Assembly: GCA_947460975.1 (NCBI GenBank) | Contig: CANHGO010000001.1 | Location: forward strand, 62,001-126,000 | DNA: 64,000 nt | Source of the DNA: Cytophagaceae bacterium | GTDB lineage: Bacteria > Bacteroidota > Bacteroidia > Cytophagales > Spirosomataceae | Direction of reading: 5' to 3' | Part shown: piece after piece, positions 6,004 to 42,183 of the stretch | How the letters are laid out: each line of letters opens with the position of its first letter | Numbering within the stretch: the stretch's first letter is position 1 | Made by a program: the position numbers and the translations under genes | The notes under the pieces: generated by a model | Told to the model about the DNA's origin: nothing | The model's database searches: none | What the model saw: the letters and a program-made list of their open reading frames with translations, nothing else

Positions 6004-6014
6004 ACCTTATTATT

Positions 6015-7067: not shown

Positions 7068-7085
7068 TTCCCGAGATTTTTAAAA

Positions 7086-7135
7086 ATAAAAACGCTAACA
7101 TTTTGAGATTCTCAAATTTGTTAGCGTTTTTTTTA
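7086..7135. terminator. Strong bidirectional terminator
   Basis: A long near-perfect hairpin has outer arms AAAAACGCTAACA and TGTTAGCGTTTTT and inner arms TTTGAGA and TCTCAAA. It has an A-run on one side and eight T on the other, so it can end both the isomerase operon (plus strand) and the gyrB-to-barrel run (minus strand). Confidence 0.9.
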
Positions 7136-7149
7136 TTGAGATATAGCGT

Positions 7150-8256
7150 CTAAAAACGATGACTGACCGTCGCTGAAATAAAGTAATCAGCAAAAGCAGC
7201 ATCTCCATGTCTCAAGCTAGTAGGATCCTTTATATCGTAGGCGCTTTTAATTCGATTTCGAACAAGGGCCAAAGGCATGGTTAAAGAAAACATATTTTTC
7301 GACTTGGAATAAGAAATTCCAGGCTCAATAGAAATGATATACCCTGGACGTCTAAATCCATCGCTTCCCCCTACTAAATCATATGAAGGTATTCCCTCAA
7401 TTCTAGTACCTAACATGACTTGAAAGCCTTTTGAAGGGATTAAATCGTATGCCACTCCCACTCGAGCAGCAAACTGATCTGCCACCGAATGGTAGCGAAT
7501 CATCAAATCAGTAATTTTTCTATCAGAGGCAAACTGTTCCGTTTCATTCACATTTTGTGGACTTAAGAGATAAAAACCATTGTAATACAATAGTGATTTT
7601 GTACCCAATACCTTATATCCTTGTACCTCAAAATTATATCCGATCGCACCATCACCTAATTGAATGGATTGGTCAACTGGTTTTTCCAAGGTATAATCTG
7701 ATCCATCTGCTTTACGGCGATGCACCACATCTTTTACATTGGAATTTCCCGTAGGTAATTTAATTCCTAAGCCCAACATAACATTCGCTTTAGGGTGCTT
7801 TAATGGATCTAAAATCCAGTAATTTGCTGTAAATCGAGCATCGCCCAATCCGACGGATTTTGTTTCAAATCGATTTCTTCCCGGATTTCCCGCTACAGCG
7901 TTCCCATAATGCTCATACATCGAGGAGCGATCATTGTATGTAAAAGGTATATTGGCACTCACCGATAAACGATCAGTCACCGAATAACTAATCCCCAAAT
8001 CAGCACTATGTGTATTATTGATGACGTTTGTCCCCTCCGTTTCCCTTTGTGCCTGATATTCTGTACCTACAAAATGCTTGTAAGAATGAAGACTGCGCAT
8101 GCCTAGGGCAACTTGCCATTGACCTGGCTGCATTAACGTATTTGAATTAGGTCCTGATCCTACGGCGCAACTCATGTGACGAACCGCAATACAACCCTGA
8201 GCCTTAACGAGCGAAGGCATTAGACCTATTAAAAATAATATAAATAACTTTTTCAT
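7150..8256 (-). CDS. Outer-membrane beta-barrel protein with Cys/His/Met-bearing N terminus
   Basis: A 368-residue exported protein with signal MKKLFILFLIGLMPSLVKA followed directly by QGCIAVRHMSCAVG, a mature N terminus with two Cys, a His and a Met. The rest alternates polar and hydrophobic residues as in a transmembrane barrel and ends in Phe (SATVSHRF), the usual outer-membrane assembly signal. Blocks such as LGLGIKLPTGNS and LGDGAIGYN resemble the porin/transporter family annotated as MetA-like. It follows a small membrane protein by 75 bases and is the last gene before a strong terminator. I do not recognise a function; the N-terminal ligands suggest metal or redox chemistry, which is inference. 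Confidence 0.7.
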   Translation of the reverse strand: MKKLFILFLIGLMPSLVKAQGCIAVRHMSCAVGSGPNSNTLMQPGQWQVALGMRSLHSYKHFVGTEYQAQRETEGTNVINNTHSADLGISYSVTDRLSVSANIPFTYNDRSSMYEHYGNAVAGNPGRNRFETKSVGLGDARFTANYWILDPLKHPKANVMLGLGIKLPTGNSNVKDVVHRRKADGSDYTLEKPVDQSIQLGDGAIGYNFEVQGYKVLGTKSLLYYNGFYLLSPQNVNETEQFASDRKITDLMIRYHSVADQFAARVGVAYDLIPSKGFQVMLGTRIEGIPSYDLVGGSDGFRRPGYIISIEPGISYSKSKNMFSLTMPLALVRNRIKSAYDIKDPTSLRHGDAAFADYFISATVSHRF

Positions 8257-8331
8257 TTTGCTTAATATTTTAAATACGAGTGTTAGTTAAGAATATAGAA
8301 TCCTAAACTTTAAAAAAATGTATCAAAAAAA

Positions 8332-8832
8332 TTATGCTTTCCTAGGAGGCGAATACACATCTGACTGAAAATTTATAGTTGATAAAGTAAGATGTTGATT
8401 TATTAATCTTTTTAATGGCCATTCAACGATATAAAAGACCCAAGATTCTGCCAACTCACAATATTCTGAAATAAGCGTAACGATTAACTTCTTATTTGCA
8501 GGTCCTGATGAGTTTTCATCTCCTAAATACTCGTTCACCTGTTCCGCTAATTGCAAAAATCGATCTCTAGCATAAGGATCAGCGTCCATATTGGTCTGCA
8601 CATCTACTTCATTACTTATTTTATGATCTGAATTAGGAAAATCTTGGTTCCCAACAATTACCCTTTCAGGTGTTTGCCAATCATTTTGATAAGGCATAGC
8701 AATATTCACGTAAACTTCAGTATTATCACGATTCAAAGTTGAATGACGCTCTATTACAAAATATCGCAAAGCAAATCCCCCGGCTTGAAAGAGTAAAATC
8801 AACATGGAGAATATAGCAACTATTTTTTTCAT
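8332..8832 (-). CDS. Small exported/membrane protein with C-terminal Pro-Pro tail, function unknown
   Basis: A 166-residue protein with a hydrophobic N-terminal segment (about residues 4-25) and then a polar, acidic domain rich in Asn, Asp and Gln. It ends in YSPPRKA (Pro162-Pro163). No catalytic motif is seen and I do not recognise the family. It sits 25 bases after dnaG and 75 bases before the outer-membrane barrel. A second small protein in this window, at 25026-25433, likewise has a hydrophobic start and an aromatic-x-Pro-Pro end and lies just before an outer-membrane receptor gene; the parallel suggests that such proteins assist a barrel partner. Confidence 0.65.
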   Translation of the reverse strand: MKKIVAIFSMLILLFQAGGFALRYFVIERHSTLNRDNTEVYVNIAMPYQNDWQTPERVIVGNQDFPNSDHKISNEVDVQTNMDADPYARDRFLQLAEQVNEYLGDENSSGPANKKLIVTLISEYCELAESWVFYIVEWPLKRLINQHLTLSTINFQSDVYSPPRKA

Positions 8833-8857
8833 AGATTAACAATCGAGCAAAATTAGC

Positions 8858-10828
8858 TTATTTTTCAATGACGGTTCCTAATTCTTGGGAAATATTTTTC
8901 TGAACTTCTTTAAGCTTGATGAAATTCAACAGCAAATCATTCATGTCATTAGGATCACCTTGAAAATTAGCCATTAAGTCCAATGATTCTTGTAGCCGCT
9001 GATCATTGTACACTTTTCTTAACCTTAACACATTTTTATAGGCTAAATCCTCCAGCATTTCAGCTTCATTCGAGACTTTAATTTCATGCCGATCTTTCCA
9101 GGTAGTCGATAAATTATGCTTCTCCGATGAGCAATCGATCGCAAATCGTTGGATTTCCTCGTCGGTGTGATGTAAATAAAATTCAGGTTTTAAGCTATTG
9201 CTATTTTTAAATTCATTTTTGCAAATCTCCATTAACTTATTAAACAAAGGCATTTGGAATAATACCCCATCTAATTCCTCTAATAAATACTGTGTAACAG
9301 AAACACCTGGAGCTTTTTCTGGATTTATTTCCAGATGGCCGAAATTGACCAACAAACGAATGCATTCAGATTCTTGATAAAAAGCTAAATTTTGGTAGGA
9401 TTCACCGCTCGTTTCCGCAACGGGTTCAATCAAATGTTGGACCTCCGTAAACGCTTGGCCCGAAATTGGCGCAAAGCCTCCTTGAGTTTGAGTGCCTGAT
9501 CGTTGCTTTAAGTTCTTTAAATGAATTTTATTCATTTCGGCCAACAACACATCTTCTTCCAAGCGCATCAAAGATGATGTTTTCTGAATAAATAGACTTC
9601 GCTGAATGGCATCAGGAATCTTAGAAATGCTTAAGACCATTTCCTTAATCAATTCCGATCTTTTGAACGGATCATCGCCGGCCTCCTGCAAAAACAAATT
9701 AGCCTGAAATGAAATAATATCTTTGGACTCTTTTTTGATATACTCAATGAAAGCCTCAGAGCCTATTTTCCTGACATAGCTATCAGGATCTTGACCTTCC
9801 GGGAAAACGACCAAATTAACTTGCAATCCCTCTTCTAAAATAAGGTCCATCCCTCTTAGCGCGGCTTTTATACCGGCAGAATCCCCGTCATAAAGAACAG
9901 TAATATGTTGAGTAAAGCGACCGATTAATTTAATTTGTTCAATGGTCAGGGAAGTACCAGAGGAAGCCACAACATTTTTTATGCCCGCCTGATGCAAAGA
10001 AATCACATCGGTATATCCTTCAACTAAGTAACACACATCCAACTTCCTTATTTCATTTTTTGCTTGGTGTATGCCATAAAGACTCGATGATTTATGGTAC
10101 ACTTCCGTCTCTGGAGAGTTGAGGTATTTTGCCTGGCTTGACTTCGCATCATTTCTTAAAATACGTGCACCAAAAGCAATAATTTTACCTGAAACATTAT
10201 GAATCGGAAAAATAACCCGATTTCTAAATCGGTCATATACCTTACCCTCCTCGTTTTTTTGAGTAACCAAACCCGCCTTTTCAATAATCTCTTGAGAGAA
10301 TCCTTGTTTCAGCGCAGATTTCAATAAAGCATCCCAAGCCTCTGGACTATACCCTAAATCAAACGCTTGTAAAGTTGAATCTGAAAAACCTCTTTCTTTG
10401 AAATATGGCAAGGCAATAGACTTCCCTTCCTCCGTATCATACAATTGCTTTTTGAAAAATTCTTTGGCATAATCCAGCATGATGAACAAACTCTCACGCT
10501 CATTTTGACGCAAAATCTGATCATCCGTCATCTCCTCTTCTTGGATATCGATGCCATATTTTTTTGCCAAATGTCTTAGAGCTTCCCCATAGCCTAGCCC
10601 TTCAATGTCCATGACAAATCGAACCGAATCACCGGCTTTGCCACAACCAAAACATTTATAAATTCCTTTGCTAGGGGAAATCGAAAAAGACGGAGTTTTT
10701 TCACCGTGAAAAGGGCAGCAAGCCCAATAATTAGCTCCTTTTTTTTTAACGGTCACATAATCCCCGATGACCTCAGCCACCGCTGCTGCTTGCTTAATTC
10801 GCTCGACAGTTTCAGGATCAATGCGCAT
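8858..10828 (-). CDS. dnaG: DNA primase DnaG
   Basis: A 656-residue primase that makes RNA primers for DNA replication. The N-terminal CHC2 zinc finger shows Cys38-x2-His41 and Cys59-x2-Cys62. The core RNA-polymerase/Toprim domain shows VEGYTDV near residue 268 and YDGDSAGIKA for the acidic metal site. The C-terminal region (about 430-656) is the divergent helicase-binding part. Length is normal for Bacteroidota. The stop of the upstream transporter gene is one base from this start, so dnaG is translated within the gyrB-led unit rather than in the rpsU-dnaG-rpoD arrangement of proteobacteria. Confidence 0.97.
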   Translation of the reverse strand: MRIDPETVERIKQAAAVAEVIGDYVTVKKKGANYWACCPFHGEKTPSFSISPSKGIYKCFGCGKAGDSVRFVMDIEGLGYGEALRHLAKKYGIDIQEEEMTDDQILRQNERESLFIMLDYAKEFFKKQLYDTEEGKSIALPYFKERGFSDSTLQAFDLGYSPEAWDALLKSALKQGFSQEIIEKAGLVTQKNEEGKVYDRFRNRVIFPIHNVSGKIIAFGARILRNDAKSSQAKYLNSPETEVYHKSSSLYGIHQAKNEIRKLDVCYLVEGYTDVISLHQAGIKNVVASSGTSLTIEQIKLIGRFTQHITVLYDGDSAGIKAALRGMDLILEEGLQVNLVVFPEGQDPDSYVRKIGSEAFIEYIKKESKDIISFQANLFLQEAGDDPFKRSELIKEMVLSISKIPDAIQRSLFIQKTSSLMRLEEDVLLAEMNKIHLKNLKQRSGTQTQGGFAPISGQAFTEVQHLIEPVAETSGESYQNLAFYQESECIRLLVNFGHLEINPEKAPGVSVTQYLLEELDGVLFQMPLFNKLMEICKNEFKNSNSLKPEFYLHHTDEEIQRFAIDCSSEKHNLSTTWKDRHEIKVSNEAEMLEDLAYKNVLRLRKVYNDQRLQESLDLMANFQGDPNDMNDLLLNFIKLKEVQKNISQELGTVIEK

Positions 10829-10829
10829 A

Positions 10830-12068
10830 TTACAAAAGTAGACCAGCTAAGGTGGCAGATAAATAAGAAGCTAGAGTTCCGGCAATTAAGGCTTTAAACC
10901 CTAATTTGGCTAAGTCGGACCGGCGAGATGGGGCTAACTCCCCTATTCCGCCAATTTGAATGGCCACAGAAGAAAAATTAGCAAAGCCACACAGGGCAAA
11001 ACTAGTAATAGCAATAGTTTTGGGGCTTAGTGTATCTTTGATTTTAACCATATCCAAGTAAGCCACAAACTCATTAACAACCATTTTCTTTCCCATTAAA
11101 GCACCTGCCACTTCTATGTCAACCGCCGGAACCCCCATAGCAAATGCAAATACGGAAAATACTTTGCCCAAAATTAAATTCATCGATAAGGTTGGCATAT
11201 TAATTAATCCACCCAATTGGCCCAAGCCTAAATCCACCAAGGCAATTAAAGCAATAAAACCGATCAACATGGCGATCACATTTAACCCTACTTTTAACCC
11301 TTCGCTTGCGCCGGCTGCAATCGCATCTACCAAATTAGCATGCGTTTTTTCAATGGACAGTTTTACTTCACCCTCTGTTTCCGACTTCTCAGTTTCCGGA
11401 AATATTATTTTTGAAATGACTAAAGCACCTGGAGCAGCCATTAAACTAGCGGCCAATAAATATGCTGCAGGAACTCCTAAAGATATATAAACGGCCATGA
11501 CTCCACCCGCGATGCAAGCGAAAGAACCTGTCATGGAAGCCATTAACTCTGATTTGGTCATGTTTTTCAAATAAGGCTTAATCATGATTTGAGCCTCCAC
11601 CTGTCCTACAAAAGTAGATGCCACATTTGATAAGGCTTCAGCACCACTGACTCCCATCAGCCAATGAACTCCTTTTCCCATGGTCGAAACAATGCGTTGC
11701 AAAACGCCCAAATGATAAAACATATTCACTAAAACGGCCACAAAAATGATGGTGGGCACCACTTTGAAAAAGAAAATATAATCATTGCCAGGACCAAAAG
11801 CCTTTGTCATTAAATCACGGTCGACGAGCGAACCAAATACAAAAAGTGCCCCCTTGTCTGCTTGACCTAAAAGCGTATTGATGCTATCGCCTAACCATTG
11901 GAATAAGGATTGCCCCACTTCGGTCTTAAGAATAAAAACCGCGAGGAGTACCTGCAACAATAAACCGACGCCCACCGTTCGATAATTAATCGCCTTTCGA
12001 TTATTTGACATCAAAAAAGCAACTCCTAAAATCAGCACTATGCCCAAAAGCCCAGTAAAACGTTCCAT
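10830..12068 (-). CDS. Concentrative nucleoside transporter (NupC/CNT family)
   Basis: A 412-residue cation-coupled nucleoside importer of the inner membrane. It has about ten hydrophobic helices. Family blocks include GVSGAEALSNVASTFVGQVEA in the middle, and near the C terminus CGFANFSSVAIQIGGIGELAP followed by RSDLAKLGFKALIAGTLAS, which form the substrate and cation site in CNT proteins. Length matches bacterial NupC. It lies 23 bases downstream of ppk1 and one base upstream of dnaG in the minus-strand run, so it is co-expressed with replication genes. Which nucleosides it carries is not visible. Confidence 0.93.
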   Translation of the reverse strand: MERFTGLLGIVLILGVAFLMSNNRKAINYRTVGVGLLLQVLLAVFILKTEVGQSLFQWLGDSINTLLGQADKGALFVFGSLVDRDLMTKAFGPGNDYIFFFKVVPTIIFVAVLVNMFYHLGVLQRIVSTMGKGVHWLMGVSGAEALSNVASTFVGQVEAQIMIKPYLKNMTKSELMASMTGSFACIAGGVMAVYISLGVPAAYLLAASLMAAPGALVISKIIFPETEKSETEGEVKLSIEKTHANLVDAIAAGASEGLKVGLNVIAMLIGFIALIALVDLGLGQLGGLINMPTLSMNLILGKVFSVFAFAMGVPAVDIEVAGALMGKKMVVNEFVAYLDMVKIKDTLSPKTIAITSFALCGFANFSSVAIQIGGIGELAPSRRSDLAKLGFKALIAGTLASYLSATLAGLLL

Positions 12069-31707: not shown

Positions 31708-32307
31708 TTAAACCCTCGAAAAAACGTAAAACATTTCGCTGGCGATTTGTTTGGAACGTTCGTCATATTTTTGAGACTCAAGATTAGTATCGTCAAACTC
31801 CTTAGGATCCTCATATCGTACGGGGATTCTTGCTTCGGCGCCAGGGATAAATGGACAATTTTCATCTGCATGTGAGCAAGTCATAATGGTGGCAAAAATA
31901 CCATGGGGATTAATGACATCGTCGTACAATTTTGAAAAGACAATGATGGGTCTGGCGTCTTTTTGATGTAAAATAAAATAGATGGGATTTGAGTGGCCAT
32001 GCTTGGAAATGATAAAGCCTGAACGTTCTAAAGAATGAATCGTTCGTTCATTGCATACCGTGACTTCGACACCCCCCGAATAGCAAAAAGCTGGTATTTC
32101 AAAATAATCTGCAGCTGTTTGTGCCCAAATTTGGGAAAATTGTGATCGACGTGAATTATGCGTGCAAATGAAATTTAGTCGGATGGGCTGACCCTTCTCA
32201 CGCTTTGATTTGATGTAATCGATCAAGGGTTGAAGAACAGATTTACGCTCATCAGATATTTCAAGCGATAAAATTGATTCTATGTTTTCGTTTAACTTAG
32301 TATTCAT
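31708..32307 (-). CDS. arsC: Arsenate reductase, thioredoxin-coupled LMW-phosphatase type
   Basis: A 199-residue enzyme that reduces arsenate to arsenite. The P-loop CTHNSRRS gives the Cys-x5-Arg nucleophile (Cys48, Arg54). CSHADENC supplies Cys144 and Cys151 at the x6 spacing of thioredoxin-coupled ArsC, and YEDP (Asp167) matches the general-acid loop. About 40 extra residues precede the catalytic domain, making it longer than the 130-residue classical enzymes. It is the last gene of arsR-arsI-arsC, 11 bases after arsI. No arsenite efflux gene (arsB or acr3) lies in this cluster. Confidence 0.88.
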   Translation of the reverse strand: MNTKLNENIESILSLEISDERKSVLQPLIDYIKSKREKGQPIRLNFICTHNSRRSQFSQIWAQTAADYFEIPAFCYSGGVEVTVCNERTIHSLERSGFIISKHGHSNPIYFILHQKDARPIIVFSKLYDDVINPHGIFATIMTCSHADENCPFIPGAEARIPVRYEDPKEFDDTNLESQKYDERSKQIASEMFYVFSRV

Positions 32308-32318
32308 CTTCTATTCAA

Positions 32319-32825
32319 TTAGCAACAACCGGAACCTGGTGCGCATGTGTTAACGGTCGTTAAATCAGATAAACTTATTTTTTCTTTTGGGGAAACGGGC
32401 GGCATGCAACAAGCAGCAGCATCTTCTAAGGCATAATGTGGATCATTAAATTCGGCATCTTCATGAAAGTAATAAACTTCCCACTGAACACCATCAGGAT
32501 CTGTGGCCCAAAATTTATCTTGTATCGCATAACAGCATGATGTACCTATTTCCTCTTTAGAAACTATTCCTTGAGCCCTTGCTTTTTCTAATAAATTAGA
32601 CATTTCCTCAAATGTTTCCACTTGAAAACCTAGGTGACCAAAATTTGATTGAACACGATCTGAATTTTCGATAAATGAGATAATTAAAGAAGGTTTATCT
32701 AAAATATATTTTGCGTATCCTGGCTTTACCTTGTTAGCAGGCTGACCAAAAAAAGTTGAATAAAAATTCACGGAAGCCGCTAAATTGCTGACATAAAGTG
32801 AGACATGCATACGTGGAAAGCTCAT
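32319..32825 (-). CDS. arsI: ArsI/CadI-type VOC protein (C-As lyase-like)
   Basis: A 168-residue glyoxalase-fold dioxygenase. The ATG at 32825 lies 2 bases after the arsR stop; the TTG nine bases earlier is rejected. Metal ligands expected for ArsI are His7 (MHVSLYV), His64 (FGHLGF) and Glu116 (WEVYYF). The vicinal pair Cys97-Cys98 in TSCCY matches the substrate-binding pair of known C-As lyases. These enzymes break the carbon-arsenic bond of trivalent organoarsenicals. The C-terminal tail carries AACCMPP and ends CAPGSGCC, extra Cys pairs that may bind arsenic or metal. Position between arsR and arsC fits an arsenic role. Confidence 0.85.
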   Translation of the reverse strand: MSFPRMHVSLYVSNLAASVNFYSTFFGQPANKVKPGYAKYILDKPSLIISFIENSDRVQSNFGHLGFQVETFEEMSNLLEKARAQGIVSKEEIGTSCCYAIQDKFWATDPDGVQWEVYYFHEDAEFNDPHYALEDAAACCMPPVSPKEKISLSDLTTVNTCAPGSGCC

Positions 32826-32827
32826 AA

Positions 32828-33163
32828 TTAACAACAGTTAGATTTTTGTGTGATATAATAATCGTCAAAGAATGCTCCAAATAGGTTTCTAAACTCCGCC
32901 CATTTTTCTGGATTAATGCAATAGCAAATTGACACCCCTTCGATTGTACCCTGAATAAACCCTATTTCTTTTAATTCGCGTAAATGTTGGGAAATAGTTG
33001 CCTGGGCGAGTCCCAATTCCTGAACCAAATCCCCATTAATACAGGTAGTTGACCTAACTAAATACTGTAAAATCGCAATTCGCGCTGGATGTCCTAAAAC
33101 TTTAGCCATGTGTGCCATGGCATTCTGTTCTGTTGAAAATAAATCGGTTTTGGTAATCCCCAT
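32828..33163 (-). CDS. arsR: ArsR-family transcriptional repressor
   Basis: A 111-residue winged-helix repressor. The recognition helix LAQATISQHLRELKEIGF is typical. The usual ELCVCDL inducer site in helix 3 is not present; instead there is a single Cys41 (TTCINGDLV), a CYC pair at Cys80/Cys82 and a terminal pair Cys110-Cys111 (KSNCC). The arsenite site may therefore be built from Cys41 and distal Cys residues, as in atypical ArsR proteins. It heads arsR-arsI-arsC and would derepress the operon when arsenite or methylarsenite binds. A palindrome 12 bases before its ATG is a likely autoregulatory site. Confidence 0.88.
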   Translation of the reverse strand: MGITKTDLFSTEQNAMAHMAKVLGHPARIAILQYLVRSTTCINGDLVQELGLAQATISQHLRELKEIGFIQGTIEGVSICYCINPEKWAEFRNLFGAFFDDYYITQKSNCC

Positions 33164-33237: not shown

Positions 33238-34110
33238 TTAATGATCTCCCTTCCTTTTGAGCAATACGCCTCCAGCAGCTTCTTTGATGATATTCGTAAA
33301 AATGAAGGCATTAGCATCATATTCAAGAACCAAATTCCGTAAATGCCGAACCTCGAAACGGGTCATGATCGTATAGAGAATGTCGGTCGGATGACTCACA
33401 TCAAAACTATCTTTCATGAATCCTCGTTCCCCTTTGTATACGGTAATTCCTTTCCCCATCTGCATGACAACGGCCTTTTTGATCTCTTCATGGTTTTTGG
33501 AAATAATCGTTACGCCGATGTATTCTTCCAGACCTTCGACGACATAGTCGATGCACCGAGTTGCAATAAAATACGTCAGCATGGCATAAAGTGCGGTCAC
33601 CATTCCTAAGCCAATCGCGGCAATTAAAAACAAGATGACATTAATCCCTAAAATGATTTCAGAAATGGTGAAACCGGAGCGTTTCAAGGTATATAGGGCT
33701 AAGACTTCAATCCCGTCGATGGCACATCCGCCCCTCATCCCCAAGCCGATACCCAAGCCTAAAAAGACTCCCCCAAAAATCGAAATCAATAATTTATCAG
33801 AGGTAATGACAGGATAGGGAATAAATGAAAGTGCTAAGGCCAATCCTATGACAGCTAATAAGGTTCGAATCGCAAAGTTTTTACTAATTAAATATCCGCC
33901 CATGATAATAAATGGCACATTACATAGTATCACCAACATAGTGATCGGAATATGATAAGTTTCATGAATCAAAAGTGCTACTCCAGTCACCCCCCCATCC
34001 AAGAAATGATTGGGGACTAAAAAACTTTCTAGGGCAAATCCGGCAAACAAAATGCCTGCGACAGCATAGAAAAAGTCTTGAACATTGTCTTTGATTGAAT
34101 GAGTACTCAT
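33238..34110 (-). CDS. YitT family membrane protein (DUF2179)
   Basis: A 290-residue membrane protein with about six hydrophobic helices (to about residue 205) and a cytoplasmic DUF2179 domain at the C terminus (about 215-285, with YTIMTRFEVRHLRNLV). FLDGGVTGVALLIH and GMRGGCAIDGIEVLALY are family blocks. YitT proteins are widespread and of uncertain function; the DUF2179 part resembles ligand-binding regulatory domains. Its ATG overlaps the stop of the cyclase gene by four bases, so the pair is translated together, which raises the possibility that its soluble domain or transport activity responds to the cyclase product. Confidence 0.85.
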   Translation of the reverse strand: MSTHSIKDNVQDFFYAVAGILFAGFALESFLVPNHFLDGGVTGVALLIHETYHIPITMLVILCNVPFIIMGGYLISKNFAIRTLLAVIGLALALSFIPYPVITSDKLLISIFGGVFLGLGIGLGMRGGCAIDGIEVLALYTLKRSGFTISEIILGINVILFLIAAIGLGMVTALYAMLTYFIATRCIDYVVEGLEEYIGVTIISKNHEEIKKAVVMQMGKGITVYKGERGFMKDSFDVSHPTDILYTIMTRFEVRHLRNLVLEYDANAFIFTNIIKEAAGGVLLKRKGDH

Positions 34111-36203
34111 GAATATTTAGATTTAATAATTTGTAAATGTTTTTCTTTTTGCGCTGCTCTTAAATTGCGAGCCGTGTCTGTAAAATAATGATGATTTTCT
34201 AAGAATTTAATTTGTATTTGATCCCAAACAGATTCTTCATTGACCACATTTCTAGCTTTTAACTCGTTGAATAATTGGTCGCCAATGGTAAAAAAATCAT
34301 CCCGACCTAAATAATCCAAATCTGCATCGGCAATAATTTCTTCTAATTTATTTTGGGGTTTTTGGGGGATTTTAGTGGCCATAATCATCCCGCAAATGAT
34401 TTCTATTTCAGGCAAAGTAAATCCGATATGAAATAAATGATCTTTGGCATATTGGCAGGAAATCTCTTCATGCCCATCGGCCTGAACTAAAAAACCAGTA
34501 TCATGAAAAAGTGCAGCTACCATAACTAGCTCTAAATCGCTCTCTCCTATTCCTTCTAAAATGGTAATTTTACGGGCACTTGTAAATACGTCGAGCGTAT
34601 GAGAAATCGAATGATAAAATAAGTTGGGAGATAAGTCGACAAGCAATTCAGATATCACCAAATCATACACTTCCAAAACTTTTGGGGTACAAAAACATTT
34701 TGAAAGGGCATAAATCTGCACCTCATTTTCTTTGCCTTTGACCTTAATGGCATCCAATTTTTGAAAATCAAAAAGTCCTGAATGATCCACATCTGAAACA
34801 ACGGATTCAGAAACCAGTATTTGTCCTGGTCCGGCATTTGAACATAGTCGGGCTGCTAAATTAACCGCATCACCAATCACCGTATAATTCATTTGATCCT
34901 TAGACCCTATATTTCCAGCGATGGCCTTTCCTCGATTGATGCCTATGCCGATTTCAATGGGATCCATTCCTTTTTCCCCTCTAAGCACATTGAAATCGAT
35001 AAGTAATTTCTGCATTTCGATGGCGGTCAACAAAGCCCTTTTAGTATCATCGTGGCCAAAAATAGGTGCGCCGTAAATGACCATTAAGGCATCGCCAATA
35101 ATCTTATCCAAGGTACCGTTGTACTTGAAAACCACCTCGATCATCAAGTCAAAATATTCATTCAAGGTTTTGACCACATCGATCGGATCCATGCGTTCAC
35201 TCATATTGGTAAAACCGCGGATGTCCGTAAATAAAGTGGTCAGCGTTAATTCTTGTCCGCCAAGATTCAATAAATCTTCATTTTCTAAAATCTTGTCGAC
35301 AATCTGTTTGGATACGTATTTCTTAAAAGTACTCTTTATTTTATCCAGGTAGGAAATATCCTCCATGGCAATCACTGTACCAATTTGCTCCCCGAGATCA
35401 TCGATCAGTGGAGAGATGGTCAGATTCACATTAACTGATTCATGTCCTACTTTGATTAAAAAGTTTTGTTCCGAATAAACCCTGACTTCCTGCTCAACTT
35501 TTTCTAAAAGAATCAATAATTCAGGATCCTTTTCAAATACAATTTGATAATGATTGCCCATGCATTCTTCGGCTGAAATGTGTGCGATTTTGACCGCCGT
35601 TTTATTGACGTAATCTATTTCACCAAACAAATTGGTCGTAATAACACCCGTATGAATCGACTCCATGATGTTATCATTAAATCGTTTCGATTCTAACAGT
35701 GTATCCAATAAAAACGTATTGTTATAAGCTACGCTAGCCTGAACAGAGATGGCTGAAAGCATCGCGGAATCCTCTATAGAGAAATCTGACATACCATTTC
35801 TAAGTTCCTTGTCAAAAATAACAATCGAGCCCAGCAATTGATTTTTCCCGGTGATAGGCGCAGCAATAGCAAATGATTTCTCTAATTTTTCTAGAAGATT
35901 AGTCTCAATAGGAACACAAGCATGCTTCTCTTTTTGAGTAGCTAAGGTATTTAAAAAACCTCTTTTTTTGTTGAAAATTATCTTTGACAGAACTTTTTCA
36001 TCCAAATTAAACACAGCCTTCGGGACGAATAAATCTGAGTTCTTTTCCTCAATTAAAACAAAACCACAGGAAGCATCTAAAATTCCACAGGTTCGAATTA
36101 AAATATCATGCAATAAATCATCCACATCCTCATGTTCAATCAGGGTATTGGTGATTTCAAGCAAAGTCTCTAATTCGAGCTGTTTGAAAGCAATATTATT
36201 CAT
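34107..36203 (-). CDS. GAF-PAS-adenylate cyclase-HD phosphohydrolase fusion
   Basis: A 698-residue cytoplasmic signalling protein. Order: GAF (about 11-165), PAS (about 173-285), a linker helix, class III cyclase (about 315-495) and an HD-type domain (about 510-690). In the cyclase, metal Asp327 (TDIRGF) and Asp371 (GDALMV) are present; Lys367 and Asp445 match the adenine-specifying pair, and Asn448 with Arg452 are the transition-state residues, so ATP cyclase activity is likely. The HD part shows His531/His535, FHDTG (His567-Asp568), His578 and Asp626/Asp628. Joining a synthase to a metal phosphohydrolase in one chain is unusual. It overlaps the YitT gene by four bases. Confidence 0.85.
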   Translation of the reverse strand: MNNIAFKQLELETLLEITNTLIEHEDVDDLLHDILIRTCGILDASCGFVLIEEKNSDLFVPKAVFNLDEKVLSKIIFNKKRGFLNTLATQKEKHACVPIETNLLEKLEKSFAIAAPITGKNQLLGSIVIFDKELRNGMSDFSIEDSAMLSAISVQASVAYNNTFLLDTLLESKRFNDNIMESIHTGVITTNLFGEIDYVNKTAVKIAHISAEECMGNHYQIVFEKDPELLILLEKVEQEVRVYSEQNFLIKVGHESVNVNLTISPLIDDLGEQIGTVIAMEDISYLDKIKSTFKKYVSKQIVDKILENEDLLNLGGQELTLTTLFTDIRGFTNMSERMDPIDVVKTLNEYFDLMIEVVFKYNGTLDKIIGDALMVIYGAPIFGHDDTKRALLTAIEMQKLLIDFNVLRGEKGMDPIEIGIGINRGKAIAGNIGSKDQMNYTVIGDAVNLAARLCSNAGPGQILVSESVVSDVDHSGLFDFQKLDAIKVKGKENEVQIYALSKCFCTPKVLEVYDLVISELLVDLSPNLFYHSISHTLDVFTSARKITILEGIGESDLELVMVAALFHDTGFLVQADGHEEISCQYAKDHLFHIGFTLPEIEIICGMIMATKIPQKPQNKLEEIIADADLDYLGRDDFFTIGDQLFNELKARNVVNEESVWDQIQIKFLENHHYFTDTARNLRAAQKEKHLQIIKSKYS

Positions 36204-36341: not shown

Positions 36342-36683
36342 TTAAAAATCAGCTAATGCTTCTTCTTTAGTCGCATAAACCGATGAGTATTTCGTTAAAC
36401 CCATAATTTTAAAAGTCTTGTCAACGATAGGTGCCAAATTATAATAGCCTAATTTCCCATCTACCTCCTGCAATTTTTCAATGATTTCAATCAGGATAGA
36501 AACCCCGATACTGTTGACCACTTTAGTCTGGGCCATATCTAATAAAAATCGGGTCTTTCCATTTGAAATGTTTTCGTAGCAAATGCCAGAAATCATTTCC
36601 CCACCTTCATTATTCAAATATCCCTCAGTTGTTAAAATTACTAAATCGTTCTCTTCTTGTATGCTTACGTTAAATTGGCTCAT
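36342..36683 (-). CDS. STAS-domain anti-anti-sigma factor
   Basis: A 113-residue SpoIIAA/RsbV-like protein. The loop VVNSIGVSIL places Ser58 at the position that the partner kinase phosphorylates, after the strand RFLLDMAQ. In the unphosphorylated state such proteins bind the kinase and free its target. The start overlaps the stop of the kinase gene by four bases, which supports a stoichiometric pair. The target that is released here (a sigma factor or other effector) is not encoded in the window. Confidence 0.88.
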   Translation of the reverse strand: MSQFNVSIQEENDLVILTTEGYLNNEGGEMISGICYENISNGKTRFLLDMAQTKVVNSIGVSILIEIIEKLQEVDGKLGYYNLAPIVDKTFKIMGLTKYSSVYATKEEALADF

Positions 36684-37096
36684 GATTCTTTCTTTTTTGT
36701 CATTGTTACAGTTGTACCTTCTTTAGTGGATTCGAACTCTACGGTATCCATTAATTCTTTTATAAGTTGTAAACCCCAGCCGCGTTTGCGTTCATCGGTG
36801 CCCAACTTATTTTCAATTTTAGGAATTTGAACTTTTGATTTATCAAATCCAATTCCTTGATCAATCACTTTAATGACTAAGGTGTCTTCTTCCAAGATAA
36901 AATGGATGAATACATTGTTTTGAGCCTGTGAGTGCTCAAATGCATTAATGCATGCCTCGATAAGCGCCATACTGATTTCAGCGGCTTTATCTTCGCTCAA
37001 ATCCATGTGCTTCGCAACTACCTCTGCCGTATTGATAGCCACCAGCTCCATGTTGGCTATAATCGGGAGTTTTAATTCAATTTTCGGTTTATCCAT
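36680..37096 (-). CDS. RsbW-like serine kinase/anti-sigma factor
   Basis: A 138-residue GHKL ATPase. The N box appears as ALIEACINAFEHS, the G1 box as DQGIGFD and the G2 box as RGWGLQLIKELMD. The small size and lack of sensor domain identify a partner-switching kinase that phosphorylates the STAS protein encoded next, and binds a sigma factor or other partner when free. It lies 21 bases after the second phosphatase gene and overlaps the STAS gene by four bases. This fixes the order phosphatase, phosphatase, kinase, antagonist. Confidence 0.88.
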   Translation of the reverse strand: MDKPKIELKLPIIANMELVAINTAEVVAKHMDLSEDKAAEISMALIEACINAFEHSQAQNNVFIHFILEEDTLVIKVIDQGIGFDKSKVQIPKIENKLGTDERKRGWGLQLIKELMDTVEFESTKEGTTVTMTKKKES

Positions 37097-37117: not shown

Positions 37118-39058
37118 TCATTTATTTTTTTTGATTATTACAAACGTTATATCATCTGGGTTGTGCAAACCATCCAGCCATTTATCTGCCTCTAAAATAA
37201 AAGAATTTTTAATTTCATCCGCAGATTTAGATCCTACAGCTTCTAAATGGTCTTTTACTCGATCATAATCATACATCTCCCCAGCTGGATTCGGTGCTTC
37301 AGGCAAACCATCTGACAACTGAATCACCACATCTCCTGACTCAAAATCCCTTTCAATCAGGTCGAAATCTTCATTTCCAAGACCACCCAAAGGCAAATTT
37401 GTTTGCAAGATTTCTTCCACTTTTTTAGTAGCTGCTTTGTATAAAAATATCGGAGGCATAGCAGCAGAGGTCATCCGTATCTTGTCATCTTTAACCTCAA
37501 CGATGTTTAAGCTCATCCTTAAAGTACCTAAATCGATCTTGCGAATGACTTGATTTAATTTTTTCAGGATTAAATTGATGTTCGTTTCTGTAATACTAAT
37601 TAAACTAGCCTTTGTTACAGAAACCATCATACCAGAGGCCACCCCATGTCCGGTTGCATCTCCACAAATAGATAAAATCGTTTTATCTGGCTTGACTATA
37701 AAATCATAATAATCTCCGCCTACTTCAGTAGAAGAACGAATAAAAGTTGCTATTTCCAAATCAATGTTTGTTGGCAAAATTTTGGGCAAAAAGCCTATTT
37801 GCATTTTTTTCGCCGCTTCTAATTCTTTTGTTTTTCGAGTCTCTTCAATTTTAGCAAATTTGCGCTTTTGAGCACTAGATTGTACCATCATTAAAACAAA
37901 AATGGCCAAGACAAATAAAACACAAATACCTCCGATCAATAGTTTTGTTTGCTCTTTTTGGGCATCCAACGCATCATTTTTATCCTGCTCGACGAGCGCA
38001 AAATTCTGTGCCTGATTAACCTGCTTATCACTGTAAAGGCTATCGCGTAAATCATTTGCTTTCTTTAAATACAAAAATGCTTGGCTATCTTGCCCCAAAC
38101 TTCTATAGACTTTAGATAGAAGCTTATAATTATTTAGAGCTCCTAACGTATAAGAATACTTTTTAGAAAGCTCATTAAATAAGTTACCATATTTCAAACT
38201 AGAGTCTGGCATATTGAGTTTATAATAAGCCTCCGACATACCATAATATGATTCCAACGCACCTTTTAATCTACTAGTATATAACTGAATGGGAATTGCT
38301 TTGTGATAGGCCTTGATCGCTTTTTCAAAATTTCCCAATTGTATATTTAAATTTCCCTCTAATATATATGGGTATCCCCATTGTTCTAAATAGGGATATT
38401 TATTATTGATTTTTTGTCCAATGATGAGAAATTTTTGTGCTTTGTCATATTCATTGATTAATAAATATATATCGACTAAATGTATCACTCTCTGCCTAGT
38501 AGTATTTGTCAATTCGGAATTTTTGACAGAGTTTAAACTCAATAAATCCTGATCTATTTTATTTAAATACTCTAAGCACTTGTCTTTATTACCTAAATGC
38601 GCATATATATAGGCAATTTGATAATTTATATCATTGTAAGGATTTGAAAAATAAAAAGTAGATTTTTCTGTAAGAGCCGTTTTATATCCCTTATCTAAAT
38701 TAATTTTTCTATATTTTAAAGCATCAAATGCATGGTAAAGTGCAGAAGTATAGTTTCCAGAATAAATATTCTCTGCATTAGCAAATAATAAATTAATTTG
38801 TTCAAGCAGTTCGGTTGAATTAACTTCTTTGGCTTCAATTTCAGCCTTCTTAAGAAAAATTACTGCTGAATCTAGTTTACTTTGAACTAAATTGACAGCC
38901 AAACTAATATAGATTTTTGCCTTTACCGATTTATCACTTGTTTTCTCGATTTTAAGCAATGAATCTTTAACACTTACTTTAGATTGGGCATGTAATACAT
39001 TCATGCTTCCCACAAATGCTAACAATAAAATAAAGAATGATTTAATAAAGTTCTTCAT
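37118..39058 (-). CDS. TPR-membrane-SpoIIE (PP2C) phosphatase
   Basis: A 646-residue protein. The ATG at 39058 yields signal sequence MKNFIKSFFILLLAFVGSMNVLHAQ; a longer TTG frame reaching the upstream gene is rejected. About 340 periplasmic residues form TPR-like helices (YPYILEGNLNIQLGNFEKAIKAYHKA). One membrane helix near 370-392 leads to a coiled-coil ELEAAKKMQIGFLP and a SpoIIE-type PP2C domain with GGDYYDF, CGDATGHG and DDITFVI carrying the metal Asp residues. It should dephosphorylate the STAS protein in response to an outside signal. It lies 50 bases after the other phosphatase gene. Confidence 0.88.
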   Translation of the reverse strand: MKNFIKSFFILLLAFVGSMNVLHAQSKVSVKDSLLKIEKTSDKSVKAKIYISLAVNLVQSKLDSAVIFLKKAEIEAKEVNSTELLEQINLLFANAENIYSGNYTSALYHAFDALKYRKINLDKGYKTALTEKSTFYFSNPYNDINYQIAYIYAHLGNKDKCLEYLNKIDQDLLSLNSVKNSELTNTTRQRVIHLVDIYLLINEYDKAQKFLIIGQKINNKYPYLEQWGYPYILEGNLNIQLGNFEKAIKAYHKAIPIQLYTSRLKGALESYYGMSEAYYKLNMPDSSLKYGNLFNELSKKYSYTLGALNNYKLLSKVYRSLGQDSQAFLYLKKANDLRDSLYSDKQVNQAQNFALVEQDKNDALDAQKEQTKLLIGGICVLFVLAIFVLMMVQSSAQKRKFAKIEETRKTKELEAAKKMQIGFLPKILPTNIDLEIATFIRSSTEVGGDYYDFIVKPDKTILSICGDATGHGVASGMMVSVTKASLISITETNINLILKKLNQVIRKIDLGTLRMSLNIVEVKDDKIRMTSAAMPPIFLYKAATKKVEEILQTNLPLGGLGNEDFDLIERDFESGDVVIQLSDGLPEAPNPAGEMYDYDRVKDHLEAVGSKSADEIKNSFILEADKWLDGLHNPDDITFVIIKKNK

Positions 39059-39108
39059 AGATTTAATTCGTACGTTCCATAAACAATCTTTTCGTTTTAT
39101 AATATTGA

Positions 39109-42100
39109 TCAAACGTGCTTAATAACGACTATCGTAATATCGTCTGGGGTTGTTTGGCCGGCCAACCAATCACTTCCTAATACCATCAATGCATCCTTTA
39201 TTTCTTCCGCCGTTTTGTCTGCATTCAGTAAAATACAATCCTCAACAGCCTGATAACCCAGTTGCTCTCCTTTTAGATTAGGAGCTTCTGGCAAACCATC
39301 CGATGCAATGACAAATATGTCTCCTTTTGAAAATGAACGTTCCTCCATATCAAAAGTAGCTCCATACAAACCACCTAGAGGTAATCCACTGATTTGTATT
39401 TCTTCGATCTTTTTCGACTTAGCTACATATAAATAACACGGTGGCATAGCCGCTGAACTAAGTTTCAATTTGTTCTTCTTAAAATGAACGATATTTAAAC
39501 TCATCCTTAAAATTCCTAAATCCACTTTTTTCACAAGTCGATTTAAGTCATACAGCATTTTATTTGGTTCATCTAGAGGAAGACCGATTAGACCGGCTTT
39601 GGTGATGGACACCAACATACCCGCTGCCGTTCCATGACCTGTGGCGTCTCCACAAACTGCCACCAAACTACCATCGGGCTGAGGATGAAAATCGTAATAA
39701 TCACCACCTACTTCCGATGATGTTTGTAAATAACTAGCTATATCTAAGCCATCGACCTTAGGTAAGGTTTTAGGCAACATCCTATTTTGCAAATCCTTGG
39801 CCGCCTCTAATTCAGCCATTCTTCGCTCGTCTTCCGCCTTACCTCTTGATTTTTTAGCTTGGTATTTTCCAAATAAAATGAAAAAATACACTAACAATCC
39901 CAGGTAAACCAGGTAAGCAAAAATGGTTCGATACCATGGTGGAGAAATTTTAAATTTAACGCTAGTTTCATCACTCACATGGCCTGAAGCGTCCATGGCT
40001 CTAACATGAAAGGTATAGGTGCCTTCATGTAAATTGGTATATTCCTTTTTGAAATCTTTGATATATTCACTCCAAGTATCATCCTGGTTTTCGAGCCAAT
40101 AACTAAAAGTTGTCTTACTCTCTGTTCCATATAAAGGATAGGCCACCTCGAAGACCAGGTTGTTTTGAGAAAAAGGAAGTGTTTCAGGCACAATGGGAAC
40201 AGGTTCCCCATTGGAAGAGATCGATCGAATTAAGGCTTTAAATTGTTGGGCTGGCTCCTTTAACGCCAAAGCAGGAAGGTAGCGATACAATTTGCTTTCC
40301 TGCGAACCAAACCAAATGACCTCATTATCTCCGCTTCCTTCCGGAAATACATTATAACTTAATTCATCCAAATCTACTTTGTAAAAAGGGTATTTTTCAT
40401 AAGTAAATCCTTTTTTAATGTCAAAATACGTTTTGAATAATCCTTTTTTACAGACTAACCAACCATACCCTGCATCTTTATTATAAGTGTAATTCCATAG
40501 TCCATCCGAAACCATTTCATCTAAACTGAAGCCTGAATATTTTAGTTTTTGAGCTTTCGTGTCAATAATAAAAACTTTATTAGAAGAATCACAAGTAGCC
40601 AAAATATCATCTTTCAAATACACTATTCCCTTCTGCTGCTTGGTTTTAGCGAATGATTTATCTTGCGGCAGAGGAGTAAATGCTCCCTGACCAGATACAT
40701 CATATTTGAACATGACAATTCCCTTCCGCGTGGATATCAATATTTTTCCAGGCTCAAGTTCCGAAACATTAGAGCCACGACATTGATCACCACCAATAAT
40801 TTTAATTTGCTTCCAAACCTTGCCATTAAATTGATGTAGTAAAAGTCCATAGGCACTATTACTACTAAATAAAAGGGAAGGATTTAACTTGGACTGAATG
40901 GATTTGTTGCTTCGATAAATATCCGAAATTTTAATCTTCTTCCCATTTAAAACAGCGTTTATCGAATAGTTGTTTGTACAAACAATTTGATCATTAAATA
41001 AAACCAAGGATCCACCCAACTCTTTTACATCCAAAGACTTAAATACCGAAGTTTCGGTTATCGACTTTTTAGGGACAAATTGAAATAAATCATCATTTGT
41101 ACGGATGATTAATTTTCCCTTGTGCCTTAAGATGTCAGAAACTCCACCTACAATTCCATTTAATGTTGAAAAATTAGTCAAAGACGGGTCAAAAGAGATT
41201 TTAGTGGCTCCTGAATTTGCCCCCCAAATATCTCCCACTCGGTCTTGCATGACGAATCCTAAGCCAGTTTCAGGTAAGCCCGAACTCAAGCCAACTTCCG
41301 CGTTGGTACTTAAGTCTTGATTTAAAAATAAGATTCCCCTGTCATTAGTAATGATCGCAATCTTGCCATTTCGCATGACCTTGTCATTGATGTATGACTT
41401 GCCTTCCATGACGTATTTGTTGGCATACGGATTATCCACCGGCAAAAATTCGCCTTTCTTGGTCATCCTAATTAATCCAATGTTTCGCGAAACCAACAGG
41501 TGATCCCCGTTGTCCAATTGGTAATTTGCCTCGATCCGATTTTGAGCAAATAACTTTTCAGAACCTTTGATGACCGAAAACCCATTTTTACTAGAATACT
41601 TGAATAAGCCTTTCCCCCAAACTCTTAAGTAAACCCCGTCCGGTGAACCTAAAATAATATGCACATCATCCTTAAACTTGTATGAGCGTAAATACTTTTT
41701 ATCCTTAAATAAATAAACTGCATTTTCTGTTTGAAAAAATACGGTGTCTTGACGAACAACCAATCCCCAAAATGTAGCTGAAACCTCATCCTTTTTGGGC
41801 AATTTATCAGAAAGAGATATATACTCATTTTGACCAAATTTATTTTTTTCCAAATACCCGAAATTGGTTCCATTAAATCCTAAGTAAATCGTATTTTTTG
41901 AATCTGTTTCCGCATCACGAACAAAAGCACTCATTGGCTTTCCATTCTGCAATACCCGCCTAACCCTTTGTCCATCAAATTCGATTAACCCATTTCTAAC
42001 ATTACCCACATAAATGACCCCTTCTTTATCTTGAAGCACTACATAATTACCAAACATAGACCTCAGAAAATCCCTTTTGTAATGCGAAATGAAAAAATTA

Positions 42101-42183
42101 CCTAGCTCTAAATCTTTTGAATCAGTATTTTGAGAGACTACACCAAATGGAAGAAATAGCAGTAATGCAATGACAAATTTCAT
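39109..42183 (-). CDS. Propeller-Y_Y_Y-membrane-SpoIIE (PP2C) phosphatase
   Basis: A 1024-residue sensor phosphatase. Signal MKFVIALLLFLPFGVVS; about 620 residues with propeller-like repeats (VMQDRVGDIWGANSG and similar), a Y_Y_Y domain around 680-755 (TNLHEGTYTFHVRAMDASG), one membrane helix (WYRTIFAYLVYLGLLVYFFI), a short coiled coil with AELEAAKDLQNRMLP and a SpoIIE domain with GGDYYDF, CGDATGHG and DDITIVV. The input module is that of Bacteroidota hybrid two-component sensors, here joined to a phosphatase instead of a histidine kinase. The catalytic domain resembles that of the next gene closely, so the two phosphatases probably act on the same STAS protein with different inputs. Confidence 0.88.
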   Translation of the reverse strand: MKFVIALLLFLPFGVVSQNTDSKDLELGNFFISHYKRDFLRSMFGNYVVLQDKEGVIYVGNVRNGLIEFDGQRVRRVLQNGKPMSAFVRDAETDSKNTIYLGFNGTNFGYLEKNKFGQNEYISLSDKLPKKDEVSATFWGLVVRQDTVFFQTENAVYLFKDKKYLRSYKFKDDVHIILGSPDGVYLRVWGKGLFKYSSKNGFSVIKGSEKLFAQNRIEANYQLDNGDHLLVSRNIGLIRMTKKGEFLPVDNPYANKYVMEGKSYINDKVMRNGKIAIITNDRGILFLNQDLSTNAEVGLSSGLPETGLGFVMQDRVGDIWGANSGATKISFDPSLTNFSTLNGIVGGVSDILRHKGKLIIRTNDDLFQFVPKKSITETSVFKSLDVKELGGSLVLFNDQIVCTNNYSINAVLNGKKIKISDIYRSNKSIQSKLNPSLLFSSNSAYGLLLHQFNGKVWKQIKIIGGDQCRGSNVSELEPGKILISTRKGIVMFKYDVSGQGAFTPLPQDKSFAKTKQQKGIVYLKDDILATCDSSNKVFIIDTKAQKLKYSGFSLDEMVSDGLWNYTYNKDAGYGWLVCKKGLFKTYFDIKKGFTYEKYPFYKVDLDELSYNVFPEGSGDNEVIWFGSQESKLYRYLPALALKEPAQQFKALIRSISSNGEPVPIVPETLPFSQNNLVFEVAYPLYGTESKTTFSYWLENQDDTWSEYIKDFKKEYTNLHEGTYTFHVRAMDASGHVSDETSVKFKISPPWYRTIFAYLVYLGLLVYFFILFGKYQAKKSRGKAEDERRMAELEAAKDLQNRMLPKTLPKVDGLDIASYLQTSSEVGGDYYDFHPQPDGSLVAVCGDATGHGTAAGMLVSITKAGLIGLPLDEPNKMLYDLNRLVKKVDLGILRMSLNIVHFKKNKLKLSSAAMPPCYLYVAKSKKIEEIQISGLPLGGLYGATFDMEERSFSKGDIFVIASDGLPEAPNLKGEQLGYQAVEDCILLNADKTAEEIKDALMVLGSDWLAGQTTPDDITIVVIKHV

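Follow-up and report, generated by a model that had tools for sequence, protein, structure and literature searches.

The stretch of DNA analysed here, called the window, is 64,000 nucleotides long and comes from a contig of a Cytophagaceae bacterium (CANHGO010000001.1, positions 62,001 to 126,000 of the forward strand). On its minus strand, positions 34107–36203 hold an uninterrupted open reading frame of 698 amino acids with an ATG start; the plus strand has 49 stops over the same positions. The encoded protein, P0001, carries a GAF-like region, a PAS domain, a class III cyclase domain and an HD phosphohydrolase domain. An earlier note on this DNA had described such a single chain, and the analysis bears this out, with the GAF part staying below the Pfam threshold. 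Directly downstream lies the gene for a YitT membrane protein of 290 amino acids with a C-terminal DUF2179 domain (33238–34110, minus strand), a candidate receptor or effector. The two genes overlap by the four bases ATGA (34107–34110), which serve as stop and start. The window chain is the rare fused form of a widespread Bacteroidota module made of a histidine kinase (HK), a response regulator (RR), an RR-cyclase, an HD protein and a YitT protein. The host is a water bacterium whose own genome is 62.6% complete; one cNMP_binding protein was found in it.

Pfam located the HD domain at residues 533–628 (E 1.7e-7; 32 bits against a cut-off of 22), after Guanylate_cyc at residues 321–500 (E 8.4e-30; 104.1 bits against a curated cut-off of 21.9). 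The PAS domain comprises residues 177–283 (35355–35675; E 5.7e-12, above cut-off). The GAF-like region comprises residues 26–159 (35727–36128) and adopts an α/β arrangement in the model; it matched GAF and GAF_3 at E 0.04–0.07 (0.044 for GAF), below the Pfam cut-off, and is only suggested. The AlphaFold2 model of P0001 has a mean predicted local distance difference test score (pLDDT) of 75.9 and a predicted template modelling score of 0.55. Its C-terminal part is all-helical from residue 507, with block pLDDT values of 93–98 from residue 511, as expected of the HD domain that had been proposed there. The cyclase part has block values of 69–95, except for residues 431–440, which have a value of 40. 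The residues that had been singled out beforehand in the two domains (D327, K367, D371, D445, N448, R452, H531, H535, H567-D568, H578, D626 and D628) are all present at these numbers.

The cyclase domain (34704–35243) was assigned from the Pfam match, a residue alignment and Foldseek. The alignment holds 33 cyclase rows, rows with a profile E > 1e-30 having been excluded, and the metal-binding residues D327 and D371, K367 and the transition-state residues N448 and R452 are kept in 33/33. The adenine-selecting pair is K367/T441 in the window family and is likewise Lys/Thr in the aligned RR-cyclases; in five of the other loci described below (L014–L016, L110 and L125) it is Lys/Asp. The window cyclase is of the Lys/Thr type, because K367 and T441 occupy the selecting positions. 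We assume here the class IIIb label and the role and position of T441 as the second adenine-selecting residue. The set of cyclase residues is intact, as had been claimed, with one correction: the second residue that selects adenine is T441 rather than D445. A Foldseek search with the P0001 model returned an engineered phytochrome-cyclase first, followed by CyaC of Spirulina, Cya2 and CyaB as the nearest single-domain matches. From the Lys/Thr pair, the cyclase is predicted to be of the ATP type. Cyclic nucleotide synthesis by the chain is well supported, and the product is probably cyclic AMP (cAMP).

The HD domain extends over residues 511–698 (34110–34673), as judged from Pfam, conservation and the model. 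Among 138 HD rows, each admitted only if its profile match exceeded 140 residues, H531, H535, H567, D568, E579, D626 and D628 are identical in 138/138 and W660 in 137/138. H578 is not invariant and is replaced by asparagine in seven rows. Of the HD residues first named, H531/H535, H567-D568 and D626/D628 hold in every row. Because the metal ligands are invariant, catalysis by this domain is likely, and the conservation predicts that it is likely an active metal phosphohydrolase.

A single scan of genome contigs yielded 17 loci with relatives of the whole chain. In 13 of these (L001–L013; L011 is cut at the contig end), the same GAF/PAS/cyclase/HD chain is present at 60–98% identity, and the overlap with the YitT gene, pointed out in the earlier note and confirmed here as ATGA, is kept in 13/13. 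Four genes lie upstream of the chain in the window, all on the minus strand. They code for a STAS-domain protein of the anti-anti-sigma type (36342–36683; Pfam E 5.3e-8), an RsbW-like HATPase of the anti-sigma kinase type (36680–37096; E 4e-25), a TPR-SpoIIE phosphatase of the PP2C family (37118–39112; E 3.6e-27) and a Y_Y_Y-SpoIIE phosphatase, also PP2C (39109–42183; E 2.4e-25). The arrangement is conserved: SpoIIE, RsbW-like and STAS genes adjoin the chain in 12/13 loci, L011 having too little flank, and are found upstream of it in ten loci and downstream in L007 and L008. Three further loci (L014–L016) code for cyclase-HD chains with an N-terminus that is hydrophobic by eye and with a SpoIIE gene directly upstream; for these, Pfam was run on L014 only. 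The relative in the remaining locus, L017, is cut off past its first 65 residues.

An HD profile (A2) matched 181/395 Bacteroidota genomes at E ≤ 0.001, the weakest of which may be other HD proteins. From at least 150 A2 matches, we fetched 80 regions, which contain 81 HD genes in addition to that of the window; they comprise the best-scoring ones, nearly all of those with a frame not of about 400 amino acids, and 24 of about 400–466 amino acids. Loci L018–L048 were left outside the counts, since the window gene itself recurs as L018 and L019, and L020–L048 are short copies of refetched places. Partner genes were classed by profiles made from sequences of the window and a small number of loci, with Pfam run on examples. 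A carefully built tree of 98 HD rows (the 81, the window and L001–L016; L051 and L085 are long-branched and their position is unsure) places the window HD in a branch of 41 rows with support of 100/99. Every one of the 19 cyclase-fused rows falls in this branch, as do the 12 remaining YitT-linked rows. The 23 HD rows fused to PycTM lie without exception outside it; L111, with a PycTM gene at a distance of 1.8 kb, lies inside. In the best tree, cyclase-HD fusions occur in three places (the window family; L110 with L014–L016; L125), and so do HD-YitT fusions (L050; L113 with L118; L122), although fewer are required by the well-supported branches alone.

The architecture census in Bacteroidota that had been suggested for this chain found the cyclase-HD fusion to be present and rare, with 3/395 genomes (G000, G041 and G150) among the fetched matches. 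Three further HD-YitT fusions (L181, L183 and L186), bringing the total to seven loci, came from a later set of 40 out of 141 listed places. This set spans genera and includes five places chosen for a fusion-like length (about 495 or 860–900 amino acids), so its share of fusions is biased upward. A quick tree of all 138 HD rows was set aside for its weak support (46); the later 40 loci therefore have no place on a sound tree. In a plasmid collection, two records carry the HD, one from Persicobacter and one from Adhaeribacter.

The unfused module is seen in L124, where genes for an HK (481 amino acids), an RR (126), an RR-cyclase (351), a YitT protein (326) and an HD protein (213) run on one strand. 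In L050, L183 and L186, the HK, RR and RR-cyclase genes are followed by a fused HD-YitT gene. Linkage was measured in 21 genomes picked solely for having the window HD clade, with 24 HD genes, 57 cyclase domains and 29 YitT genes. A cyclase lies within 6 kb of the HD gene in 16/24 cases, two of them fusions, against 0.195 expected. YitT lies within 1 kb in 12/24 cases, four of them fusions, against 0.022 expected; both partners are near the HD in 10/24. With one script applied to both clades, a cyclase is fused or within 3.5 kb in 14/24 window-clade rows versus 5/57 rows of the other clade. Within the order to which the window belongs, HD matches at E ≤ 1e-45 occur in 140/390 genomes; in a few of these the chain is as long as a PycTM fusion. 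Among 40 of these loci that were fetched, a cyclase is found within 7 kb in 27 (an RR-cyclase in 22, and within 250 bases in 17), YitT within 1 kb in 11, and both partners in 10.

The co-occurrence across genomes points the same way. Class III cyclases are present in 205/395 sampled genomes. In a sample of 98 genomes related to the window at class level or closer, in which unfetched HD matches were scored as outside the clade, a class III cyclase is present in 22/22 genomes with the window HD clade versus 25/76 others (Fisher p 3e-9, a value that is too strong because the genomes are related). Of the genomes whose HD members lie outside the clade, 21/59 have a cyclase, against 4/17 of those without HD. 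The former are not enriched in cyclases, and the idea that the HD proteins form one uniform family of cyclic nucleotide phosphodiesterases (PDEs) was dropped. What is informative in this comparison is how the two clades differ.

The YitT protein scores 181.5 bits with YitT_membrane (E 1.8e-53) and 40.9 bits with DUF2179 (E 1.8e-10), both over the cut-off. Going by the Pfam names, YitT/DUF2179 is an uncharacterised family, and among the control genomes YitT is also present in those of Bacillus, Caulobacter, Thermotoga and Lactococcus. That YitT is a genuine partner, which the overlap had suggested, is borne out by its fusion to the window's HD clade elsewhere. In a YitT tree, 26 HD-linked proteins fall on one side of a branch (Shimodaira–Hasegawa-like approximate likelihood ratio test support 99), opposite 17 unlinked ones from the same 21 genomes. 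The DUF2179 domain of the window protein (residues 221–280; 33271–33450) carries the motif YKGERG at residues 225–230. The motif is complete in 26/26 linked proteins, whereas, of the 17 unlinked ones, 12 have the Y, 6 the K, 12 the first G, 2 the E, 5 the R and all 17 the last G. The linked domains also have an extra residue at 236 (0/17 unlinked) and E277, where 16/17 unlinked proteins have aspartate. The model of the HD-YitT fusion in L113 has a mean pLDDT of 89.8, and its DUF2179 domain appears PII-like in fold. Beyond HD chains, Foldseek matched this model to 3hlu (a DUF2179 structure, 0.005), to ribosomal protein S6 (0.02) and then to many PII-like proteins at E 0.04–0.09, among them SbtB with cAMP or AMP, CPII with AMP or ADP, and PstA and SbtB with cyclic di-AMP. 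The fold alone is not telling, since S6 also matches. The modelled fold fits a role of the DUF2179 tail as a candidate nucleotide sensor of PII-like type, which may bind such a ligand.

We propose that the products of the locus serve a single messenger, probably cAMP: an ATP-type cyclase would make it, a phosphodiesterase would degrade it and a membrane receptor would respond to it. We put the probability of this reading at about 0.5. The GAF-like and PAS domains would detect a signal and adjust the cyclase activity accordingly. In the unfused relatives the input would be a phosphorelay, and in the window it is possibly the STAS/RsbW/SpoIIE switch. The class III cyclase would form a 3′,5′-cyclic nucleotide, most likely cAMP. 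The steps past synthesis are more conjectural. The C-terminal HD domain would cleave the messenger to the linear nucleotide and keep the signal short and local; that one chain makes and destroys the same nucleotide is plausible on genomic grounds. The DUF2179 tail of YitT, as the likely receptor, may bind either the cyclic nucleotide or its AMP product, and an altered membrane activity would follow. Having the cyclase and HD in one chain, or the HD on YitT, would confine the signal locally. More tentatively, with a chance nearer to one in three, the whole module may be a dedicated Bacteroidota circuit for cAMP or another cyclic nucleotide, with a cyclase controlled by phosphorelay or GAF/PAS domains, a small HD phosphodiesterase and YitT with a PII-like sensor, sometimes in one chain.

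Several observations weigh against this proposal, beginning with those on the substrate of the HD domain. The solved chains nearest to it by profile are 2pq7 (2.3e-9) and YedJ (4.7e-4), and Foldseek matched the HD part of the L113 model to 2pq7, 2pjq and YpgQ with ADP. The nearest solved HD proteins are either uncharacterised (2pq7, YedJ and BH2835) or linear-nucleotide enzymes (YpgQ, which we take to be a nucleotide pyrophosphohydrolase acting on linear nucleotides). Class I PDEs are members of the HD superfamily. P0001 has no PDEase_I match in Pfam at E ≤ 1. A profile of the N-terminal half of the HD domain (A5) found BH1327, BH2835, 2pq7 and 4mcw (0.0022) first and class I PDEs from E 0.0028 onwards. 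The likeness to the PDEs centres on a YHxxxH..HD motif, with YHN..H..DV and HD in common; it is weak and outranked by other HD chains, including 4mcw, which is presumably an HD-GYP phosphohydrolase. Neither Pfam (E ≤ 1) nor NCBIfam (E ≤ 0.01) gives an HD-GYP family match for P0001 itself. A control profile from the other HD clade (A6) matches PDEs too, at 0.0023. The class I PDE motif was consequently dropped as proof of PDE function, since the control matched equally well; the HD family is PDE-like in its first half generally, and the cyclase-linked clade is not singled out. The case for the messenger as HD substrate therefore rests on genomic linkage, and this linkage is incomplete: 8/24 clade loci are without a cyclase within 6 kb, 12/24 are without YitT within 1 kb, and neither partner is nearby in 12/40 loci of the order. 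For the sensor, the PII-like matches rank behind S6, and their attribution to DUF2179 was made by match length. The PAS domain and the linkers are of low quality in the P0001 model. Seven genomes of the same genus (G469, G581, G600, G622, G625, G649 and G703) have no HD match at 1e-45 (0/7), while close relatives of the window gene (L001–L006, 86–98% identical) occur in other records, which suggests a patchy distribution or transfer.

Four other explanations were weighed. The HD domain may act on a different substrate, for example on a linear nucleoside or deoxynucleoside triphosphate as a pyrophosphohydrolase like YpgQ, or on a dinucleotide, and the chain would then join two signals. The closest solved chains listed above agree with this, as does the other HD clade, in which 23/57 rows are PycTM-fused, 38/59 genomes are without any class III cyclase, and genes for a SixA-like phosphatase and polyphosphate kinase recur beside the HD gene. 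The window clade is strongly tied to cyclases, however, and to cyclases of two types, and we regard a different substrate as rather unlikely. Alternatively, HD and YitT could be the core unit, in which YitT would transport a nucleotide-like or phosphorylated compound that HD processes or senses, with the cyclase just regulating the unit and the HD perhaps a non-catalytic sensor. In L128 and L049, HD and YitT are paired and no cyclase lies within 6 kb, and the linked YitT proteins form a distinct branch of their own. Against such a core speak the invariant metal ligands (138/138), which favour catalysis, and the presence of cyclases near HD far above chance even at loci without YitT; we judge it improbable.

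A Pycsar-like anti-phage system, with a pyrimidine cyclase and YitT as membrane effector, is suggested by the PADLOC PycC profiles, which match the cyclase domain at 7.5e-22, and by the PycTM fusions in the other HD clade. These PycC matches cover just the shared cyclase domain (stretches within residues 285–502), and the adenine-type Lys/Thr pair is retained. Moreover, YitT and the HD-YitT fusion gave no PADLOC match, the unfused relatives adjoin two-component genes, and the neighbours examined include no PycTM or TIR gene. On the adenine-type residues and the lack of a known effector gene among these neighbours, a Pycsar identity was set aside as very improbable. A chance juxtaposition or a misassembled fusion would be in keeping with the rarity of the fused form among the fetched matches. 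The fusion is neither due to chance nor to a single misassembly, because 13 further full or near-full loci share the chain and the ATGA overlap; other cyclase-HD fusions exist as well, and we consider this explanation refuted to within a negligible residue of doubt. The proposal of a cyclase, phosphodiesterase and receptor for one messenger remains the reading that we prefer.

The cyclase with its own HD domain had been put forward as an undescribed class. This holds in part: among open-access papers, judged by titles and the beginnings of abstracts, none could be recognised that deals with a bacterial cyclase-HD chain or with cyclase-HD-YitT, but the idea of a cyclase joined to its own PDE has a precedent in plants. 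In CAPE (combined adenylyl cyclase with phosphodiesterase), known from liverwort and other streptophytes, a class III adenylyl cyclase shares its chain with a class I PDE, and the two activities were demonstrated in vitro (PMC5159850; the chain is also treated in PMC8115329). The window chain likewise has a cyclase and a phosphohydrolase in one polypeptide, known here from sequence. In CAPE the PDE, a class I domain, comes first, and two predicted transmembrane helices separate it from the cyclase. The window chain, in contrast, has a small bacterial HD domain at the C-terminus that lacks a PDEase_I match, and YitT and partner-switch genes in its operon. The bacterial chain is not a CAPE, since its HD family, order and partners differ, and by analogy it would work like one. 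In an early survey of signalling proteins (PMC1183210), class III cyclases and HD-GYP are tallied separately, and the part considered here does not mention such a chain. A comparison with Pycsar was made as well (PMC11224242). The likeness lies in the class III cyclase fold, the membrane partner and the PycTM fusions of the other HD clade; unlike Pycsar, the window has an adenine-type cyclase, an HD hydrolase and YitT in place of PycTM or PycTIR.

In their receiver-cyclase layout, the unfused relatives resemble CyaC. We assume that CyaC has a Lys/Thr pair like the window cyclase; it is reportedly activated by phosphotransfer, according to a study cited in PMC1183210, and we know of no CyaC-type cyclase with an HD domain. 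YpgQ and 2pq7, which are among the closest solved HD chains, are free-standing proteins. The HD-YitT model matches SbtB with cAMP (6mmq) and with AMP (6mmo) over a stretch the size of DUF2179. In the SbtA/SbtB system SbtB is a separate protein, unlike DUF2179, which is a domain of the membrane protein; to our knowledge, YitT is unrelated to SbtA. Signalling of the cAMP type is little known in Bacteroidota, and through the fusions and the gene order one particular HD clade and one particular YitT branch are now linked to class III cyclases. If the proposal is true, YitT/DUF2179 would gain a ligand and a regulator, and the HD clade would be a new bacterial class of cyclic nucleotide phosphodiesterase.

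Some observations on other loci and on the flank of the window are added here. The L125 fusion (5992–11589) is a chain of 1866 amino acids with GAF, class III cyclase and HD domains at its C-terminus. In L109 (1910–5946), HD and YitT are immediately preceded by a tandem of two different Lys/Asp cyclases. Chains of 860–900 amino acids with TolB-like and TPR parts end in HD in L119 (3973–6561), L123 (5989–8628), L165 (6992–9583) and L188 (4865–7561). A degenerate cyclase was considered for L119 and L123 and was rejected, as Pfam finds none in L119; the L119 N-terminus has no domain assignment and, by eye only, looks TIR-like. The PycTM fusions of the other HD clade, of about 400–466 amino acids, are those in L052, L058, L062, L064, L089–L096 and L098–L108. 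Around the 98 HD rows of the tree, a gene of the SixA-like histidine phosphatase family occurs in 24 loci and a polyphosphate kinase gene in 18, with one example of each checked by Pfam. Downstream of YitT in the window (31708–33163), the minus strand codes for an ArsR-family regulator, a glyoxalase-family protein and a small protein. The small protein, which Pfam leaves without a match at 1e-4, resembles an arsenate-reductase-type phosphatase by eye. A gene that looks ArsR-like by eye is also found near the HD in L119.

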